From a virus: a stretch of 21,523 nucleotides of DNA. A program made the translations under genes and the position numbers. The stretch spans positions 1 through 21,523 of IMG/VR virus record IMGVR_UViG_3300035698_032252; one strand, written 5' to 3'. Below are positions 11,017 through 19,486 of the stretch, in pieces. Each line of letters starts with the position of its first letter. Position 1 is the first letter of the stretch. The notes under the pieces are model-generated. The model was not told the origin of the DNA, searched no databases, and saw nothing but the letters and a program-made list of their open reading frames with translations.

Positions 11017-11607
11017 CTAGAACGGGATCGGGTCGTCGTCGGGGATCGGGCTGGAGCCGCCGCCCTGGCCGCCCCAGCCGCCGCCTCCCTGCTGCTGGCC
11101 GCCGCCCCAGCCGCCGCCTCCCTGCTGCTGGCCGCCGCCCTGGCCGCCGCCTCCCTGCTGGCCGCCGCCCTGGCCGCCCCAGCCGCCGCCTCCCTGCTGC
11201 TGGCCGCCGCCCTGGCCGCCGCCTCCCTGCTGCTGGCCGCCGCCCTGGCCGCCGCCCTGGCCGCCCCGCTTGGTGCCATCCGAGAGGAAGACGACGTTGC
11301 GGACGTTGATCTCCCACACGCGCTTCTGCGCGCCCTCGCGGTCCTCGTACTCGCGAGATTGCAGGCCCCCCTCCACGTAGACCTGCCGGCCCTTGCCCAG
11401 GTACTGCGCGCAGGTCTCGCCCAGCTTCCCCCAGACGACGAGGGTGTGCCACTCGGTTCGCTCTTGGCGCTCCCCCGTGTTCTTGTCGTTCCACGTCTCC
11501 GTGGTGGCCATCCGCATGTTGCACACGGCCTGCCCGCTCTGCGTGTGCCGCAGTTCCGGGTCGGCCCCGAGGTTTCCGATCAGCGTCACCTTGTTCAGTC
11601 CAGCCAT
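11017..11607 (-). CDS. ssb: Single-stranded DNA-binding protein
   Basis: 196 residues. The OB-fold (about 1-110) is a textbook SSB: '[22 protein letters not shown]', '[31 protein letters not shown]', '[21 protein letters not shown]' and 'YEI-like [12 protein letters not shown]'. The C-terminus is the acidic tip DDDPIPF, which in bacterial SSBs recruits partner enzymes. Between them residues 115-184 consist only of Gly, Gln and Trp. It coats single-stranded DNA during phage replication and recombination. GAGGAG (11620-11615) lies seven bases before the ATG and overlaps the stop of the upstream helicase gene, four bases away, so the two are one operon. Codons are strongly G/C-ending (about 93% in the first 85), consistent with high expression. 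Confidence 0.97.
11056..11265 (-). repeat. Gly/Gln/Trp low-complexity tandem repeat in the SSB linker
   Basis: 210 bases encode 70 residues (115-184) made only of Gly, Gln and Trp, in imperfect repeats of [14 protein letters not shown] type. Units vary in length and in whether the Trp block is present, as expected from repeat slippage or unequal recombination. Gly/Gln-rich linkers are common in bacterial SSBs, where they influence cooperativity and condensate formation; the near absence of any other residue here is more extreme than usual. The opposite strand reads as a long Ala/Leu open frame, which is an artefact of this repeat. Confidence 0.9.
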
Positions 11608-11611
11608 CTCT

Positions 11612-13522
11612 CTACTCCTCCGGCCGTGCCGGAATCAGGCCCGCGGACACCAGCCAGCGGGTCGGTTCTCTTGCCTTGTCTCGAAGCGTCGTCGGCACGA
11701 TGACGGTGAGGCGGTCTTGCGCCCGGGACATGCCGACGAAAAGCGCCCGTCCGGACTCCGCGATCTGTTCTGGCGTCTTCGCCCACCGCACGGGGATAGC
11801 GCCTTCGCAGGCGCCAACGACGATGACCGCGCGCCACTCGAGCCCCTTTGCGCCCCAGAAGGTCAGAAGCGGGATGCTGCCAGCGGTCATCGTCGGCCGG
11901 TATCGGGCTTCGTCCGATGCGATCCACACCAGCCAATCTCCGGGGGTCGCAACGATTGGGCTGTCGGCATCTGCCGGGTCCCATTCGCGCATCGCGCGGC
12001 AAGCATCGACGAAGGCTGGACCACACCGATCCTCCATCGCAACCGCTGCCGCGCACACCTCCGCAGTCGTAGTCGCAGACGCGATCGACTGCCACCACCC
12101 GGCGGGGGTGAGCGTCTCGGGGCTATCGTCAAGGGCTGTCGCGAGGGAGACGCCCGACCCGTGCGCAGCGGCAACTGCCCTCGTCACGGTCGCTGCTGGG
12201 TCGCCGAGTCCGAAGCATCGGAGGATAAGCGCGACGTCGAAATCGTCTGCCCATCCGCGTGCTGCGAGCCGAGCGAGGGCAACGACCGACCGGCCCGCGA
12301 GGGTAGTCCAGCAACCCCTGTCACGGTTTGGCGTCGTTGTCGCGAACCCTGCGGCGCGCAGCGCGTCCTGCGCTTCTGTCAGTTCGTCCCAGGTTGACGC
12401 CAGGACCGCGATTTCGTGGGGCTCGATCCCAGCAGCAAAGGTCGCGTAGTGGACCTCCCGAACGACGGCGGCGGGCCAGTCGTCCGTCGTCACGATTTCG
12501 ACGCTGCCCTCGTCTTGTCTGCTTGCGACGATCGGAGCTTCGACGCAGGCCCCGTCTTGGACAAGCGCCGCCCGGACTGCCCCGCAGAATTCCACGATCC
12601 GGCGGCCGGATCTGTAGTTCGTGGCGAGGCCTGCAGACACGCCATCCAGCCGCTCGGAGAACGTCGGCACGGTTGGGCCCGTGGAGCCACGGTGCAGGAA
12701 GCCGAAGATGGCCTGCGCGTCGTCACCCACGACTGACAGCGATTTCGGATTCCATGCGTCGATGATCGCCCAGTGGAGGGGCGAAAGATCCTGCCCTTCG
12801 TCCACGACGAGACACCGGATGGTGTCCGTCAGCGCAGGCGTGTCCGTCTCTCCCTCCGCCGCAACCATCTCGTGCAGCATCGTCAGAAGATCGTCGTAGG
12901 TCACGAGAGCGCGGGCGACCAGAAGCCGCCGCGCTTCGTACACCGGCAGCCAGCCCGCGAGTTCGTCACCGCGCGCGGTGAGCCCTGCCTTGAGTTTCCG
13001 TTTGCTCACCCGCTTGCGGAGGTCGCGGTGGGCGGCATCGACCATATCAGCGACATCCTCCGGAGTGGCGATTCCGAAGTCCGCGGAATCGACCCATCCA
13101 AGACGTCGAATGGCGCCACCGCCCGCAAGTTTCCCCGCGAGCGCTCTCCGTGCCCAGCGGTTCGCGAGCCCGTGGATGGTGCCGACGATGGGCATCGAGG
13201 TTTCGATTTTGCCTGTGCCGAGGCACACGCGACAGGTGACGGTAAGCCCGCCGGAAATGACGGTCCCGCATCCTTCACAAGCCCGGCACGGCACAGATTC
13301 AGGAAGGTGGGCTGCGACTCGACGCGCGAGATCGGTTGCCATCGAGCGGGTGTATGTGAATGCGGCAATCTCCGGGGCGCAGAATGCGTACGAACAGATG
13401 AGGTGCGCGATTCGCCCCGCGATCGTTCGCGTCTTTCCCGCGCCAGGCCCCGCCGTTCGCATGATGCGAGCGGCAGGATCTGTCGCGATGGCAGCCTGTG
13501 CGGAATCCAGCATGCCTGGCAT
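11612..13522 (-). CDS. UvrD/PcrA-like SF1 DNA helicase with DnaJ-type zinc hairpin insertion
   Basis: 636 residues from ATG 13522, which overlaps the stop of the SMC-like gene (TAATG) and has GGAGG at 13531-13527. A GTG seven codons upstream lacks a ribosome site. SF1 motifs are complete: Walker A AGPGAGKT (Lys30), motif Ia '[16 protein letters not shown]', 'GTIHG', Walker B VVDEGQD (241-245), motif [15 protein letters not shown], motif IV TNYRSG, motif V '[17 protein letters not shown]', motif [14 protein letters not shown]. This is a 3'-5' helicase of the UvrD class. An insertion at residues 79-104 carries CRACEGCG and CRVCLGTG, a pair of CxxCxGxG motifs like the zinc hairpins of DnaJ. UvrD and PcrA themselves lack this. 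SSB follows after four bases, and SSB commonly recruits such helicases. Confidence 0.92.
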
Positions 13523-15828
13523 TATTCCTCCGTCGTCGCCCACTTTTGGATCTGCTCCGGGCCCACGTCTTCTGCGTCCTTTTTGCTGCGACCGCGAGAG
13601 AGAGCCAGAAGCAGCGATCGAGATCGAGCGAGATCACGCGGTGCGCGGACTCGTCCGAATCCTGTGCGGAGGGCATTGCGGAGTTGATCGATGGTCAACA
13701 TGTTGACCACCGATTCGAGATCGTTCTCATCGGACGCGACTTGGGTACCGTCCTGTTCGGGCTGGGCACCATCGAACGGGTCGAAGTCATCCAAAATGAG
13801 TTGCGGGGATACCTCGGGGACGATCTCCCCGATGTTGATCGTCGTCCAGGCGTCGTCCAGGCCGATGGTTGGCCAGCACTGGCAGACGATGGCTTGCGAT
13901 AGCTCGCCCTCGTCAACCATGGCCTGCAGCCGCTTCATCGTCGCAGCGCGAACGGCAGGATCCAACGGGTCAGCCTCGACCATCGCAATCCGCAGGTCGC
14001 GGTTGAGCACCGAATCGATCGCTCGATTCATGGCCTCGCCAAGGATGATCCGCTGCGACTCAGAGAGCGCGGGCCCGTACCAGAACTTATCGCCGTCCAC
14101 GAGGCCGACACGACGATCCCTGATTGCTACGGTCCAGCCGTCTGGGAGGAAGCGCTGCGCCGCCTCGGTGATGATCTGCTCTCCGATGGCGAGAAGTCGG
14201 GCGCGCTGCTGCTCAACGAGTTCAACGAGTTCAACCGCATCGTGGGCGCGAGTAGCAGCATCGCCCGCGAGCTTCCTGTCGTCCAGGAGACGCTTCATCT
14301 TCCCTGCGTCATTTGCCGCTTCATGCGCTGCAGCCCGGAGGTTGACGACGACGCCATTGGCGGCGTCCGCTGCTGTATTCGCATGCGCATGCGCGACGTC
14401 GGCTTCATCGATCGCAGCCCCAACGTCATCGACCAGCGCGATGTGTTCGGCTCGGGCTGTGCGCAGATCGTCGAGCCTCGTTCTCGCTGCCGCCTCGTTG
14501 CCGCTGCCGGCTGCGCAGGCCGTCGAGCGCTTTTCCATCGCAACCAGCAGCGCGGTCCGCGCCTCCTTCAGCCTCACCCCAGCCCCGTTAGCCGCACTGA
14601 CCGCAGCATCTTCCGCTGCGGATTTCATGTTGAATGACGCTACGAGGCCATCCATCTCGGCTTTCGATACCGAGTTGCGGACGAGAGGGCAGATGCCGTG
14701 CAGGTCGTACGTGGTCGGGACATCGCCGTCTGGGATCGCTCCTCCATCGATCCAGCACTTGGATTCGCTGCACGGGGGGTGCGGCTGTTCGTTGCGCTTG
14801 GCCTCGGCCAGCGCACCCATCGCGGCGTGGCGCTCATTTATCGCTACCGCCTCGGTCGCGGCGTGGCGCTCATTTATCGCTACCGCCTCGGTCGCGGCTG
14901 TGTTGGCTTCGGCGACGGCTGTATCGAGCGCCTCAAGATCCATGCCCGTACCCGCGGTCACCTTCTCGACCGTGGCTTCTGCCTCGTGGATCTCCCGCGC
15001 GAACTCTGCGCACTTGCATTCGTGCGTGCGTCGGGCGGCATAGGCGGTGTCCACAGCCGCCGCCGCAGATGCCTCGACCCGCACCAACTCATCCCTCTTG
15101 GCTTCTGCTGCCTCGAGGGTTTTGTTGGCCGAGGTCGCCGCGTCGGGCTCAATGCGACGACCGCCGAGTGCCGCCCTCGAGCGATCCGCGGATCCGTCGA
15201 TGCTGCGCTTCGCTGCTGCCGTATCGCGCTTTTCCTGCGCGGCGACATCAATCATGGCGTCGAACCGAGCAATGGTGCTGAAAGTGTGGGGTGCCTGTGC
15301 GTTTCTCGTCAGCGCCCCGCAGTGATACGCGGCAACCATCGCCTCCACGCGATCGGTGATGTCGATGGCATCCGGATGCGCAGCCCCGAAGCGGGCGATC
15401 TGCGCCAGGATTTGCGTCTGCGTGGCAGTCAGCCACTCCGCGCCGTCGGGTGCTACGATATCGCCGACAACTGCGTGCAGCAGGGATCCGTCGGTATCCT
15501 CAACGCCATCGACGTAGACTGTCGATTTTCGGAGGCTGCGCTCGGCTGTGGCCCGCTCGCGGGTGAGCACATGCTCTGCACCATCGAGACCCACGGCCGT
15601 CGCTTCGACACGCATCATGTCACCGTCGAGAAGCGCGATCAGGTTGCGTCCGTCCACCTTCTCGCCCGCGACGGTCCTGCCGAAAAGGTAGCGGATGGCG
15701 TCGGCCAATCGCGACTTCCCCGCACCGTTCGGCCCGACGATGGAGGTAAGCCGCCCGAGAACGGCGGAAAATTCCGGCCCCTTGAGGCCGACGATTCGGA
15801 TCGCCGTGATCGCTGTGATGCGCGGCAT
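13522..15828 (-). CDS. SMC/Rad50/RecF-like P-loop ATPase
   Basis: 768 residues. The N-terminus 'AIRIVGLKG ... LTSIVGPNGAGKSRLADAIRYLFG' is the RecF/Rad50/SMC ABC-ATPase head with Walker A at 32-39 (Lys38). The C-terminal head has LSESQRIILGEAMNRAI, equivalent to the LSGGQ signature, and 'LRIAMVEADPLD' where Walker B should be; the usual DE pair reads EA. The middle (about 210-520) is Ala/Glu/Arg-rich helical arm, with a duplicated 12-residue unit and, at C353, C358, H377 and C380, a possible metal site where Rad50 has its CxxC hook. Strong site GGGGAGGT at 15840-15833 precedes ATG 15828. It lies between Rad52-like and UvrD-like genes, with no Mre11/SbcD nuclease in the window. A role in DNA-end handling or recombination is inferred. 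Confidence 0.85.
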   Translation of the reverse strand: MPRITAITAIRIVGLKGPEFSAVLGRLTSIVGPNGAGKSRLADAIRYLFGRTVAGEKVDGRNLIALLDGDMMRVEATAVGLDGAEHVLTRERATAERSLRKSTVYVDGVEDTDGSLLHAVVGDIVAPDGAEWLTATQTQILAQIARFGAAHPDAIDITDRVEAMVAAYHCGALTRNAQAPHTFSTIARFDAMIDVAAQEKRDTAAAKRSIDGSADRSRAALGGRRIEPDAATSANKTLEAAEAKRDELVRVEASAAAAVDTAYAARRTHECKCAEFAREIHEAEATVEKVTAGTGMDLEALDTAVAEANTAATEAVAINERHAATEAVAINERHAAMGALAEAKRNEQPHPPCSESKCWIDGGAIPDGDVPTTYDLHGICPLVRNSVSKAEMDGLVASFNMKSAAEDAAVSAANGAGVRLKEARTALLVAMEKRSTACAAGSGNEAAARTRLDDLRTARAEHIALVDDVGAAIDEADVAHAHANTAADAANGVVVNLRAAAHEAANDAGKMKRLLDDRKLAGDAATRAHDAVELVELVEQQRARLLAIGEQIITEAAQRFLPDGWTVAIRDRRVGLVDGDKFWYGPALSESQRIILGEAMNRAIDSVLNRDLRIAMVEADPLDPAVRAATMKRLQAMVDEGELSQAIVCQCWPTIGLDDAWTTINIGEIVPEVSPQLILDDFDPFDGAQPEQDGTQVASDENDLESVVNMLTIDQLRNALRTGFGRVRAPRDLARSRSLLLALSRGRSKKDAEDVGPEQIQKWATTEE
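14820..14898 (-). repeat. Perfect 36-bp tandem duplication in the SMC-like gene
   Basis: Period 36 with 79 consecutive matching bases, i.e. about 2.2 perfect copies. It encodes ATEAVAINERHA twice, in frame, in the arm region of the ATPase. Perfect identity, including third positions, points to a recent slippage or duplication event. Adding 12 residues is not a whole number of heptads, so it would shift coiled-coil register unless the arm is locally not a coiled coil. Confidence 0.95.
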
Positions 15829-15830
15829 GA

Positions 15831-17009
15831 TTACCTCCCCATCTTCCTGGCTTGTGCGTACATCGCGGCCAAGCAGGCGTTCAGGAACTCCGTGGTCGGG
15901 CCGCCCTCTGCCACGGGCTTGATGACCGCGACGGGGAGGAGATTGGGCATACCGCAGTGGGCCTTCGCTTCATCGAAGATGAGCTGCCCCTCGTTCTTTC
16001 CGATCACCCTCCAGGCCGCGCGGAGGGAATCGATCTGCTCCCGCCGCACGATGGCGAGAGCGACGTCTGCCTGCGACGTGGACGCGGACAGCGGCGTAGA
16101 TGGCGGCACTGTCGAGGGCTGCACAGGCGCGGGTTCGGTGGGCCGCAGTGTGCGCGGCTCGGTCCACTTCTGTTGCCCGGCCGGGGCCCCTGCGGCCTGG
16201 GCCGGGGGCTTCCCTGGGGTGGATCCGGGAACCGGGGGGGTGGGTCCGGGAACAGGGGGCTCGGGGTGGCCCTGGGACGGGAGTTGCACGGAGACCGGGG
16301 GCTGCTCGGCGGGGGGCGTGGGCGGGGCCTGGGTCGGGGGCTGGTGCCCCGCGACGAGGGCCTGGGCCGGGGCCTGGTGGCGGGGGGCCGGGGGCCTGGG
16401 GCCGGGGGCCGGGGCAGGGGAGTCAACGACCCCCGTCTGCGCGTCGTACGCCTGCCCATCTACGGTGGGCACCTGTCCAGACAGCGCGGGCCAATCCGGC
16501 CACTGGGGATCCCGGCGGGCTGCGAAGCGCCGCCAGTCTACGTCGTTGCCATCTGCGTCCTTGGCGTGCAACCGCATGACCGCCAAGCCGAACTGCTGGC
16601 CGAGATTTATCGCGGCGTCGCGGAGCGCGTAGGTGACAGCAGACGCTCGTCCGTTCTGGTAGCAGTCGATGAGATTCTTGGACGTCTTCTCGTCCGAGCC
16701 CGTCCCGTCAATCTCCAGAACACGCCCGCCGGGCGTGTAGATGCGCAGGCGGACGATGCAGGAGAACATCACCCGGAACTTTCCACCGCTGCCATCCGCT
16801 GCGATCCGCTCTTCGCTGATGTCGGTGATCTGGTAGTCCCAGCCCCCGAATCCGAAGACCATGTTGAGCGTGTTTCGGATGGTCACGCCTGGCACGTATG
16901 GCCACCCTCTGTATGGATGGACTCGCACGGACTCCATGTTGATGGGCATGCTCAAACAGGCGACCTGCGTGGGCAACAGCCCACCAAAGATGGGCGTTTC
17001 TTGCTGCAT
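15831..17009 (-). CDS. Rad52-family single-strand annealing protein with Pro-rich linker
   Basis: 392 residues from ATG 17009. Residues about 35-145 fit the Rad52/22 fold: 'YVPGVTIRNTLNMVFGFGGWDYQITDI', 'VMFSCIVRLRIYTPGGRVLEIDGTGSDE', and 'ASAVTYALRDAAINLGQQFG', matching the family's '..R..lN.vFGf.gWs.ev' and 'av..AlkrA...fG...G' signatures. Such proteins anneal complementary strands and bind partner SSB. About 198-305 is a proline-rich linker, followed by a conserved-looking helical C-terminus (315-392). A longer frame starts at 17066, but that ATG lies inside the predicted promoter, and GGAG at 17024-17021 favours 17012 (GTG) or 17009. It is the first gene of the minus-strand operon; its stop is two bases before the next ATG. 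Confidence 0.87.
   Translation of the reverse strand: MQQETPIFGGLLPTQVACLSMPINMESVRVHPYRGWPYVPGVTIRNTLNMVFGFGGWDYQITDISEERIAADGSGGKFRVMFSCIVRLRIYTPGGRVLEIDGTGSDEKTSKNLIDCYQNGRASAVTYALRDAAINLGQQFGLAVMRLHAKDADGNDVDWRRFAARRDPQWPDWPALSGQVPTVDGQAYDAQTGVVDSPAPAPGPRPPAPRHQAPAQALVAGHQPPTQAPPTPPAEQPPVSVQLPSQGHPEPPVPGPTPPVPGSTPGKPPAQAAGAPAGQQKWTEPRTLRPTEPAPVQPSTVPPSTPLSASTSQADVALAIVRREQIDSLRAAWRVIGKNEGQLIFDEAKAHCGMPNLLPVAVIKPVAEGGPTTEFLNACLAAMYAQARKMGR
16204..16266 (+). other. G-quadruplex-type run cluster (template strand of the Rad52-like gene)
   Basis: The plus strand carries eight or more runs of three to seven G with loops of one to seven bases (GGGGG, GGGG, GGG, G7, GGG, GGG, GGGGG, GGGG). This meets the standard G3+N1-7 pattern. 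It arises from the CCC/CCG proline codons of the linker on the minus strand, so the G-rich strand is the template for transcription. Whether it folds is unknown. Confidence 0.6.
16382..16420 (+). other. Second G-quadruplex-type cluster in the same linker
   Basis: Six G runs (6, 5, 4, 5, 4 and 4 long) separated by loops of only two or three bases on the plus strand. Short loops make this a stronger quadruplex candidate than the one at 16204. It again corresponds to the proline-rich linker coding region read on the minus strand. Confidence 0.65.
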
Positions 17010-17031
17010 CACAATTTTTTCTCCGCGTATC

Positions 17032-17049
17032 GTCGAGAATAGCCTCGAC
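17032..17049. promoter_or_regulatory. Inverted repeat at the start of the minus-strand operon, possible operator
   Basis: GTCGAG (17032-17037) and CTCGAC (17044-17049) are perfect six-base arms around AATAGC. If the -10 at 17062-17057 is right, the repeat begins at about +1 of the Rad52 operon transcript. It could be a repressor operator or a short leader hairpin. No repressor gene is in the window. Confidence 0.35.
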
Positions 17050-17056
17050 CGTGGGT

Positions 17057-17085
17057 AGTATCGCATTTACCGGACGGGGGGGCAA
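17057..17085 (-). promoter_or_regulatory. Possible sigma70-like promoter of the Rad52-SMC-UvrD-SSB operon
   Basis: On the minus strand TTGCCC (17085-17080) is followed after exactly 17 bases by GATACT (17062-17057), each 4/6 to consensus. Transcription would begin near 17050, giving a 40-base leader to ATG 17009. A Pribnow-type match at ideal spacing in the divergent gap supports it, though the -35 is weak. Confidence 0.4.
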
Positions 17086-17171: not shown

Positions 17172-17600
17172 ATGGCGCGTGTGTGGGAAATGGCAGTAGC
17201 TGGCGTGCCGCGGACGAAGGCTCGACATCGGAGCGGACGCTCCGGGCGCGGCCCGGACGCGGGGCGCCACGCGTACACGCCCGACACGACCGTTGATTAC
17301 GAGCGGCGTGTGGCCGGCGTTGCGATTAATGCGGGGGTCGCAATCTGCGAGGGACGGTGCGACTTGGACGTCCGCGTCTGGCTACCTGACAGGCGGCGGA
17401 AGGATCTCGATAACGTCCTCAAGGTTGTAATGGACGGGCTCGTTAGAGGCGGGCGGCTGCTGCTCCACGACGACAGTTTCGTCCACGTTCGGTCCGTGCG
17501 GTGCTGGCACGCTGGCTACGATGCCGCGAACCCCCGGGTAGAGATCCGCATCACCGAGGTCGCCGACGACGATCAGCCCCTCCCCGCCGCATGGCCATGA
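17172..17600 (+). CDS. rusA: RusA-like Holliday junction resolvase
   Basis: 142 residues, near the usual 120-140 for RusA. The signature KDLDNVLKVVMDGL (77-90) followed by HDDSFV (99-104) aligns with the E. coli RusA catalytic region: Asp78, Asp80, Lys84 and Asp100/101 correspond to its Asp70, Asp72, Lys76 and Asp91. The N-terminus has the typical 'vaGvPRtKaRHR' start and the C-terminus 'PRVEIRITEV' the final strand. RusA dimers cut Holliday junctions with metal ions, which here would resolve recombination intermediates or branched replicating DNA before packaging. It is the first gene after the plus-strand promoter. GGGG at 17163-17166 is a modest ribosome site. The stop overlaps the helicase start (ATGATG). 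Arg/Gly-rich residues 14-34 look like a flexible insertion. Confidence 0.9.
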   Translation: MARVWEMAVAGVPRTKARHRSGRSGRGPDAGRHAYTPDTTVDYERRVAGVAINAGVAICEGRCDLDVRVWLPDRRRKDLDNVLKVVMDGLVRGGRLLLHDDSFVHVRSVRCWHAGYDAANPRVEIRITEVADDDQPLPAAWP

Positions 17601-19486
17601 TGATTGCGCGCGACTACCAACGCGCAGCCATCCAGGCAATACGGGAGTCCTGGGATGGTGGGGAGTGGGCCGCGTTGTGTGTGATGGCAACTGGGTTAGG
17701 GAAGACTTTTGTTTTCGCTTCGCTTGGTAAGGCTCTCCGGCTGGAAGGGCTGCGACGAATCCTGGTCCTCGCGCACCGGACGGAGTTAATCGAGCAGGCT
17801 GCGGCGAAGTGGCTCGAAATCGACCCTGCCGAAAATGTTGGGATCTACAAGGGCGCGCGGCGGGACCTCCACGCGGATGTCATCGTCGCCTCGGTCGCCT
17901 CGTGTTATCCAGACGGCTACGTCGAGGCCGCATGTCCACACGGGTGCAGAGGCGACGCGCATCTGACCAATCCGCACGGAAGCCACATATGCGGGGAGTG
18001 CAAGCGCCGGTTCACATCCGAAACCTACGATGCGCACTCCTGCATGCAGATCGCGCTCGGGCGGGCCCCTGCCTGCGACGTGTGCCGCGACCGCGGGACA
18101 TACCGAAAGCTGACCCGCAAGGGCAGGCTCCACGAGCTGCCGCTGGACGAGATCGATCTCGTCATCATCGACGAGGCTCACCACGTCACCAGAACATCGA
18201 TCTACGCGGCAGTGATCGAGGCCGTGCGGACGGCCAACCCGGCCTCGCTACATCTCGGCGTAACTGCTACGCCGTTTCGTGCGGACAACCGCGGCCTGGG
18301 GTGGCTGTACCCCGGGGTCGCGTACAACATGGGGATCAAGACGGGGATCGATGCGGGCTGGCTGTCCCCTCTGCGGGGCGTTCGCGTAGAGCTCGACGTC
18401 GATCTGAACGACGTCAAAATCTCCAGGGCCACGGGCGACTACAGCGACGAGGACCTGGCCCGGGTCATGGACACGGTTCAGGCGCGGCGCGAAGTCGTCC
18501 GCGCTTGGATGTATGAGTGCGGCCCGGGGACAGCAGCGGGCGGTCCGCGCGGACGTCGAACCGCAGCATTCTGCCCCACCCTTGCGGCTGCGGAACATCT
18601 CTCCGCGGAGTTCGTCGCCGCGGGCATCTCGTCGGCGTGGATCAGCGGCGTGGCCAAAGATAAGCGCCACCGCAGGGCATCGATCGCGCGCTACTCGGCT
18701 GGGGATCTCCAGGTCATCGTGAGCGTCGGCACGCTGACCGAAGGGTGGGACGATCCGCCCACCGACTGCATCCTCATCGTTAGACCGACCAAGTCCAAGG
18801 GGCTTTTCGTTCAAATAGTGGGGCGAGGAACACGCATCGCGCCGGGCAAGAGCGACTGCATCGTGCTCGACTGCACAGGGGCATCCGCCCTTGGGTTGAT
18901 GTCGCTCGCCGATCTGTCCGACGACCTGCCCAAAGAAGAAGCGATCCCGATCGAGGAAGAAGAGGAGGAGTACGAGAAGCAGCCACAGGAGCCGCGCACG
19001 ATCACGATCCGCGGATACAGCCCGTACGACGTCGATCTGTTCGGCGGCGGCGTCCACTGGGCGCGCATCAACGGAGCGCGGGTCGCCACCGTGGATATCG
19101 GCTCTTCCGTCGTAATTTTCGGGGCTGGCGATTCATTCGCCGCCCTTTCGACCTCGCCGAGCGGCGTCGACTGGATCGTGCGGGATACCCCCGAGCGAGA
19201 GGCGATGATCGCGGCCGAGGCCTTTGCGACGGAGCACGGCAAGGCCCGATTCCTCAGACCAGAGGCGTGGTTCACCCGCCGGCCTGCATCGGATAAGCAG
19301 ATCTCTGCGGTAGCCCGACTTCTCAAATGGTTGGCGGATCGCCGCGCAGGGGTTTCGGGGGTCACGGCGAGCGGGATGTCGATGGCGCTGGCATCGGCGT
19401 GGCTCGGTTATCTGCACGCGCGCAAGAGGTATTTGCTCGCGGCGCGGAGCGCACCACATGTTGAGAGCGCCGCCCGAACGGAGTAG
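17597..19486 (+). CDS. SF2 DEAH-type helicase with cysteine-rich insertion
   Basis: 629 residues from ATG 17597, chosen because ATGA overlaps the rusA stop; ATG 17591 and 17600 are equally possible, and no clear ribosome site separates them. A further upstream start at 17501 adds an Arg/Pro-rich shadow of rusA and is rejected. SF2 motifs: 'DYQRAAIQAI' Q-like motif, Walker A ATGLGKT (Lys36), 'LVLAHRTELIEQA', DEAH (192-195), TATPFR (motif III), 'VIVSVGTLTEGWDDP' (V) and QIVGRGTRI (VI), as in RecG/UvrB-like and phage UvsW/SSL2-type helicases. An insertion at 113-163 contains C113, C117, C132, C135, C149, C160 and C163. After motif VI comes an acidic run, then a C-terminal region with 'SDKQISAVARLLKWL'. 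Likely branch migration or fork remodelling. Confidence 0.92.
   Translation: MMIARDYQRAAIQAIRESWDGGEWAALCVMATGLGKTFVFASLGKALRLEGLRRILVLAHRTELIEQAAAKWLEIDPAENVGIYKGARRDLHADVIVASVASCYPDGYVEAACPHGCRGDAHLTNPHGSHICGECKRRFTSETYDAHSCMQIALGRAPACDVCRDRGTYRKLTRKGRLHELPLDEIDLVIIDEAHHVTRTSIYAAVIEAVRTANPASLHLGVTATPFRADNRGLGWLYPGVAYNMGIKTGIDAGWLSPLRGVRVELDVDLNDVKISRATGDYSDEDLARVMDTVQARREVVRAWMYECGPGTAAGGPRGRRTAAFCPTLAAAEHLSAEFVAAGISSAWISGVAKDKRHRRASIARYSAGDLQVIVSVGTLTEGWDDPPTDCILIVRPTKSKGLFVQIVGRGTRIAPGKSDCIVLDCTGASALGLMSLADLSDDLPKEEAIPIEEEEEEYEKQPQEPRTITIRGYSPYDVDLFGGGVHWARINGARVATVDIGSSVVIFGAGDSFAALSTSPSGVDWIVRDTPEREAMIAAEAFATEHGKARFLRPEAWFTRRPASDKQISAVARLLKWLADRRAGVSGVTASGMSMALASAWLGYLHARKRYLLAARSAPHVESAARTE

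Follow-up and report, generated by a model that had tools for sequence, protein, structure and literature searches.

The window, that is, the whole stretch of DNA that was analysed, is a virus record of 21,523 bases. It carries a helicase gene and the following neighbours:

11017..11607, minus strand: SSB with a long Gly/Gln-rich tail, the downstream neighbour of the helicase gene (Pfam SSB, 3.8e-35)
11612..13522, minus strand: UvrD/Rep/PcrA-like SF1A DNA helicase, 636 amino acids from the ATG at 13522 (a GTG at 13543 is also open and would give 643 amino acids)
13522..15828, minus strand: SMC/Rad50-like ATPase, immediately upstream of the helicase gene (SMC_N 6.2e-7, below the curated cut-off; phrog_77, SbcC-like, 2.8e-5)
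15831..17066, minus strand: Rad52-like single-strand annealing protein (Pfam Rad52_Rad22, 4.1e-14)
17172..17600, plus strand: RusA-like Holliday junction resolvase (Pfam RusA, 4.4e-15)
17591..19486, plus strand: SF2 (ResIII/SSL2-like) helicase (ResIII, 3.3e-25), with a cysteine-rich insert at about 17933-18085

Judged by these family matches, the genes of this neighbourhood form a set for recombination and repair. The window shares with two related phage contigs, L032 and L104, the order of things in which the helicase, SMC/Rad50-like and Rad52-like genes lie on one strand and those for RusA and the SF2 helicase on the other, and the SSB gene adjoins the helicase gene in the window and in L104. 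In L032 and L104 the neighbouring genes were identified by comparing their translations with those of the window; a search was used for the SF2 helicase alone. Since the stop of the SMC-like gene overlaps the start of the helicase gene in the window, both are probably translated together. The SMC/Rad50-like protein of the window has the sequence CSESKC, as against a Rad50-like CPTC hook in L032 and CSACDC in L104, and it holds a tandem duplication (ATEAVAINERHAATEAVAINERHAA). The repetitive Gly/Gln-rich tail of the SSB ends in DDDPIPF.

The helicase matches the Pfam families UvrD-helicase (PF00580; 1.2e-23, 84.6 bits against a curated cut-off of 23) and UvrD_C (PF13361; 8.6e-15, 55.4 bits against a cut-off of 25.6), and its best PHROG is phrog_1967, a DNA helicase (2.1e-48). 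When its structural model was compared with solved structures by Foldseek, the top matches were Deinococcus radiodurans UvrD, Escherichia coli UvrD, Rep and PcrA, with TM values of 0.57-0.70 against the solved UvrD/Rep/PcrA chains. Reading of the sequence showed that motifs I, Ia, Ib, II, III, IV, V and VI are all present and in the right order, so that the view of an otherwise intact UvrD-class helicase, put forward in an earlier note on this DNA, was upheld. The motifs and the overall fold are thus those of UvrD, PcrA and Rep (PDB 4c2t, 2is1, 3pjr and 1uaa) and of phrog_1967, and the helicase core presumably works as a standard 3'-5' motor. However, the scores against the NCBIfam equivalog models for Rep (81.5 bits), PcrA (74 bits) and UvrD (69 bits) are far below the respective cut-offs of 951, 911 and 1144. 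The protein is therefore regarded as UvrD-like, and not as UvrD itself. No Pfam match to the J domain (HPD) was found, which argues against a DnaJ or Hsp40 chaperone. Likewise, the helicase has no Pfam match to HRDC and its cysteines lie between motifs Ia and Ib, which sets it apart from the mycobacterial-type UvrD2.

These cysteines belong to an insert that is placed as follows relative to the helicase motifs:

13430..13453, minus strand: motif I (Walker A), AGPGAGKT, residues 24-31
13337..13357, minus strand: motif Ia, TYTRSMA, residues 56-62
13211..13288, minus strand: DnaJ-type zinc hairpin insert (predicted), residues 79-104 in the 636-residue numbering and 86-111 from the GTG start
13265..13288, minus strand: first knuckle, CRACEGCG, residues 79-86, with the motif cysteines and glycines invariant in three homologues
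13211..13234, minus strand: second knuckle, CRVCLGTG, residues 97-104, with the motif cysteines and glycines invariant in three homologues
13169..13183, minus strand: motif Ib, GTIHG, residues 114-118
12788..12805, minus strand: motif II, VDEGQD, residues 240-245

The earlier note had reported two CxxCxGxG units at residues 79-104 (window positions 13211-13288) and had placed them between motif Ia (TYTRSMA) and the GTIHG segment, which is motif Ib; the sequence confirms both statements. Shuffling of the helicase's own residues (200,000 times) produced a single CxxCxGxG unit 577 times and the spaced pair not once. The same paired insert is carried by two related phage proteins, with identities of 41 and 44% to the window helicase, which were found in L032 by searching IMG/VR with a two-knuckle DNA pattern and in L104 with a profile of the knuckle pair. 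The three helicases group in one clade, with a support of 100/100, in a tree built from 29 viral UvrDs. The knuckles read C-R-A-C-x-G-x-G and C-x-x-C-x-G-x-G across the three members, the four cysteines and the four motif glycines being invariant. Indeed, the insert residues that are the same in all three (C, R, A, C, G, G, C, C, G and G) are those of the motif itself and no others. The linker between the knuckles varies both in sequence and in length (10 residues in the window and 13 and 6 in the other two), it is neither basic nor conserved, and the span from the first to the last motif residue is 22-29 residues. All four motif cysteines are invariant, as against two of the helicase's remaining 12 cysteines (Fisher p = 0.008, for three sequences only). 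On this sequence evidence, invariant motif cysteines among variable other cysteines are the signature of a putative metal site. The earlier note had raised the question of whether homologues keep the cysteines, and both L032 and L104 have all four. That the cysteines arose by chance, or through a sequencing or frame artefact, has a negligible probability, since the reading frame is intact and encodes the same motif in each of three separate contigs, and no shuffled sequence had the pair. The insert as read from these sequences is therefore taken to be real and conserved in a small group of uncultivated phages.

The occurrence of the insert beyond these phages was examined by measuring the segment between motifs Ia and Ib in a viral comparison set of 103 fetched sequences that match the family profile. 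The automatic measure failed for about 40 of the 103, eleven of which were read by eye. This segment comprises 59-66 residues with 4-5 cysteines in the three members (63 residues in the window helicase) and mostly 25-37 residues with 0-1 cysteine in the other readable viral relatives; two further relatives have segments of 44 and 56 residues and no cysteine pair. Among the matches listed from the 103 fetched sequences, none of the readable ones other than L032 and L104 has a CxxC pair at this position, and a family-specific scan found no members beyond these two. In agreement with the earlier note, which had stated that UvrD, PcrA and Rep have no zinc module here, such a module is absent from the solved structures, as it is from the other readable viral UvrD-like proteins; in the remaining UvrD-type enzymes that were examined, no more than a short loop takes its place.

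A search of 84,980 bacterial and archaeal genomes with a two-knuckle codon pattern beginning with TGCC found no UvrD with the insert, the matches being DnaJ, UvrA and chance frames; this pattern is narrow and not exhaustive, as it fixes the first cysteine codon, the next base, one glycine per knuckle and GT.H. A two-knuckle pattern beginning with TGCG gave no matches, nor did whole-protein peptide patterns in viral contigs. Profile searches, run without a positive control, revealed no close cellular relative at 1e-40 in 398 plus 396 whole genomes from two phyla. The matches to a one-knuckle pattern were an unrelated phage protein family (CRxCxGTG...RSVGTIHA) and noise. This family, seen in L005, L006, L015, L016, L017 and L019, has a single CRxCxGTG that is followed by RSVGTIHASSAHxCVRRLYYDV. 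A full-text literature search of open-licence papers gave no example of a zinc module within domain 1A of a UvrD-family helicase, and we know of no description of such a protein.

The likeness to DnaJ proposed in the earlier note was borne out by a profile of the insert only, which matched the DnaJ zinc domains among solved structures (E 4.2e-7 for DnaJ 6jzb and 9.9e-6 for 1exk, the zinc domain of E. coli DnaJ). The insert scored 14-17 bits against Pfam DnaJ_CXXCXGXG (PF00684), which is below the cut-off of 32.7 bits of a model that expects four units. The cysteine-rich domain of DnaJ (1exk, 6jzb; PF00684) has paired knuckles like those of the insert, but it belongs to a chaperone and comprises four units with two zinc sites, whereas the insert has two units and lies inside a helicase. 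By homology, it is nearly certain that the insert binds zinc, and the four cysteines of its two knuckles would be expected to hold one zinc ion. The AlphaFold2 model of the helicase, built with 29 aligned sequences, has a pLDDT of 90 and a pTM of 0.89, with blocks of 91-95 over the insert. In this model, strands at residues 76-78, 87-90, 93-96 and 105-107 precede the strand of motif Ib (112-115), and according to the DSSP string the two strand pairs of the insert have one register in common (i + j = 183). Read in this manner, the strands would fit one antiparallel hairpin with the knuckles opposite each other. The structure prediction proposed in the earlier note thus yielded a confidently modelled insert whose strands read as a hairpin, and gave no reason to reject the proposal. 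When modelled alone, the insert gave a low-confidence structure (pLDDT 59.5, pTM 0.30), which indicates that the high confidence of the fold depends on the surrounding helicase.

With regard to the position of the insert, the model shows motifs I, Ia, Ib, II and III following strands 19-24, 52-56, 112-115, 237-241 and 261-266, respectively. The insert makes up the connection from the helix at residues 59-72 to the strand at 112-115, before the motif Ib strand. As modelled, it is located in the RecA-like domain 1A, at the edge opposite the loops that carry the ATP and DNA motifs, an assignment that rests on general features of the RecA-like fold. The earlier note had assigned the insert to domain 1B, which is incorrect, because the segment is a helix-to-strand loop of domain 1A between motifs Ia and Ib. 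The suggestion that it might add DNA-junction recognition found no support either: the topology argues against a direct contact with the single-strand track, and a placement on the other edge of 1A means that such a contact is not the first expectation.

Taken together, the reading that we prefer, and to which we would give an even chance of being correct, is that the insert is a zinc-stabilised docking knob on a UvrD-like helicase for a partner encoded in the phage recombination gene set. The helicase would be a 3'-5' SF1A motor working in this recombination and repair set, and a DnaJ-type hairpin would have been inserted in the 1A loop that joins the helix behind motif Ia to the motif Ib strand, with all catalytic motifs kept. 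Made rigid by zinc, the hairpin would project from domain 1A at the edge that faces away from the ATP and single-strand DNA motifs, and its most likely role would be to dock the SSB, the SMC/Rad50-like ATPase or the Rad52-like annealing protein; taken more widely, the candidate partners from the gene set may also include RusA and the SF2 helicase. Docking of a partner is preferred because the metal site alone is conserved and because, in the model, the knob faces away from the DNA motifs. A precedent is provided by anti-TRAP (2bx9; PF15777), which has two CXXCXGXG motifs in a chain of 53 residues and in which zinc is essential for assembly and function (PMC2896485). It shows that zinc binding and contacts with protein can both be provided by one CXXCXGXG pair per chain (PMC2896485), the number present in the insert. 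However, anti-TRAP is a free-standing protein that forms trimers, whereas the insert sits inside a helicase, and the insert-only profile matched anti-TRAP weakly (E 0.21).

The conservation of the metal-binding motif and of nothing else is also consistent with a hairpin that merely stabilises the helicase or that is a tolerated remnant without a partner, possibly derived from free-standing small phage CxxCxGxG proteins. The insert resembles the small phage families phrog_3931, 8897, 26458 and 22300 (E 0.0008-0.01), and these proteins, like that of L023, are a possible source of the inserted hairpin. We nevertheless consider this explanation rather unlikely, since an insert without a purpose should have lost its cysteines among homologues that are 41-44% identical, and since other UvrDs fold without a hairpin. 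In L023 (Virus Rctr197k), the open reading frame that ends at about 2261 encodes a small protein with a paired CxxCxGxG-like motif.

Slightly less probable still is an accessory DNA contact, in which the hairpin would extend to duplex DNA or to the 3' strand as it exits, and would aid junction recognition or processivity. In terms of sequence the insert does lie between two motifs that contact single-stranded DNA, a hairpin, if long, could stretch round the domain, and in a related phage the SF2 helicase has CxxC and CxxCxGxG units after the motif Ib/Ic strand, nearer to the DNA face. This explanation is, however, difficult to reconcile with a hairpin that leaves the model at the edge opposite the motif loops, and with a linker of 6 to 13 residues that is not basic and not conserved. 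Lastly, CxxC zinc sites can be redox sensitive, and a redox or metal-availability switch, in which oxidation or zinc loss alters the helicase activity, is therefore conceivable but very improbable, as nothing in the sequence or the surroundings points to it.

The docking knob may be viewed alongside cysteine modules in other helicases. Actinobacterial UvrD2 proteins (Tsukamurella WP_068742924.1, L207; Nonomuraea, L206), which at about 29-30% are among the best matches to the window helicase in a plasmid collection, are also UvrD helicases with a four-cysteine module. However, their CxxC pair lacks the GxG, it lies near the C-terminus (residues ~610-660) just before the HRDC, and their Ia-Ib loop is short. 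Pseudomonas phage Ab18 ORF01 (L020) resembles the window helicase in being a phage helicase with a DnaJ-like paired CxxCxGxG hairpin (CSNCDGTG...CPTCEGTG, residues ~297-323), but it is of the SF2/SNF2 family and has the hairpin between SNF2-rel_dom and Helicase_C and not in a UvrD domain 1A. In addition, a cysteine-rich insert of about 60 residues precedes motif II in the SF2 helicases of the window and of L104. That of the window (17933-18085) contains CPHGC, CGEC and CDVC, and that of L104 has four CxxC units (CPAC, CELCDGDG, CRKC and CPICSGEG), two of which are CxxCxGxG. The L104 insert has no significant match among solved structures, and an insert of this kind is absent from L032 and from the Streptomyces and Tunturiibacter phage relatives examined. 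In view of the UvrD-like, SF2 and SNF2 examples, phage helicases seem to have acquired such modules on more than one occasion.

As a tentative extension, for which we see less than an even prospect by some way, DnaJ-type zinc hairpins might serve as built-in docking knobs on the RecA-like motors of the helicases of these phages (the UvrD-like SF1A helicase and, in one relative, the SF2 helicase), which would assemble with the SSB, the SMC-like ATPase and the Rad52-like protein into one recombination machine. More generally, our findings suggest that phage helicases carry DnaJ-type zinc hairpins as a recurrent accessory, and the insert defines, with three members among the matches listed, a small clade of phage helicases with a removable and testable accessory module.
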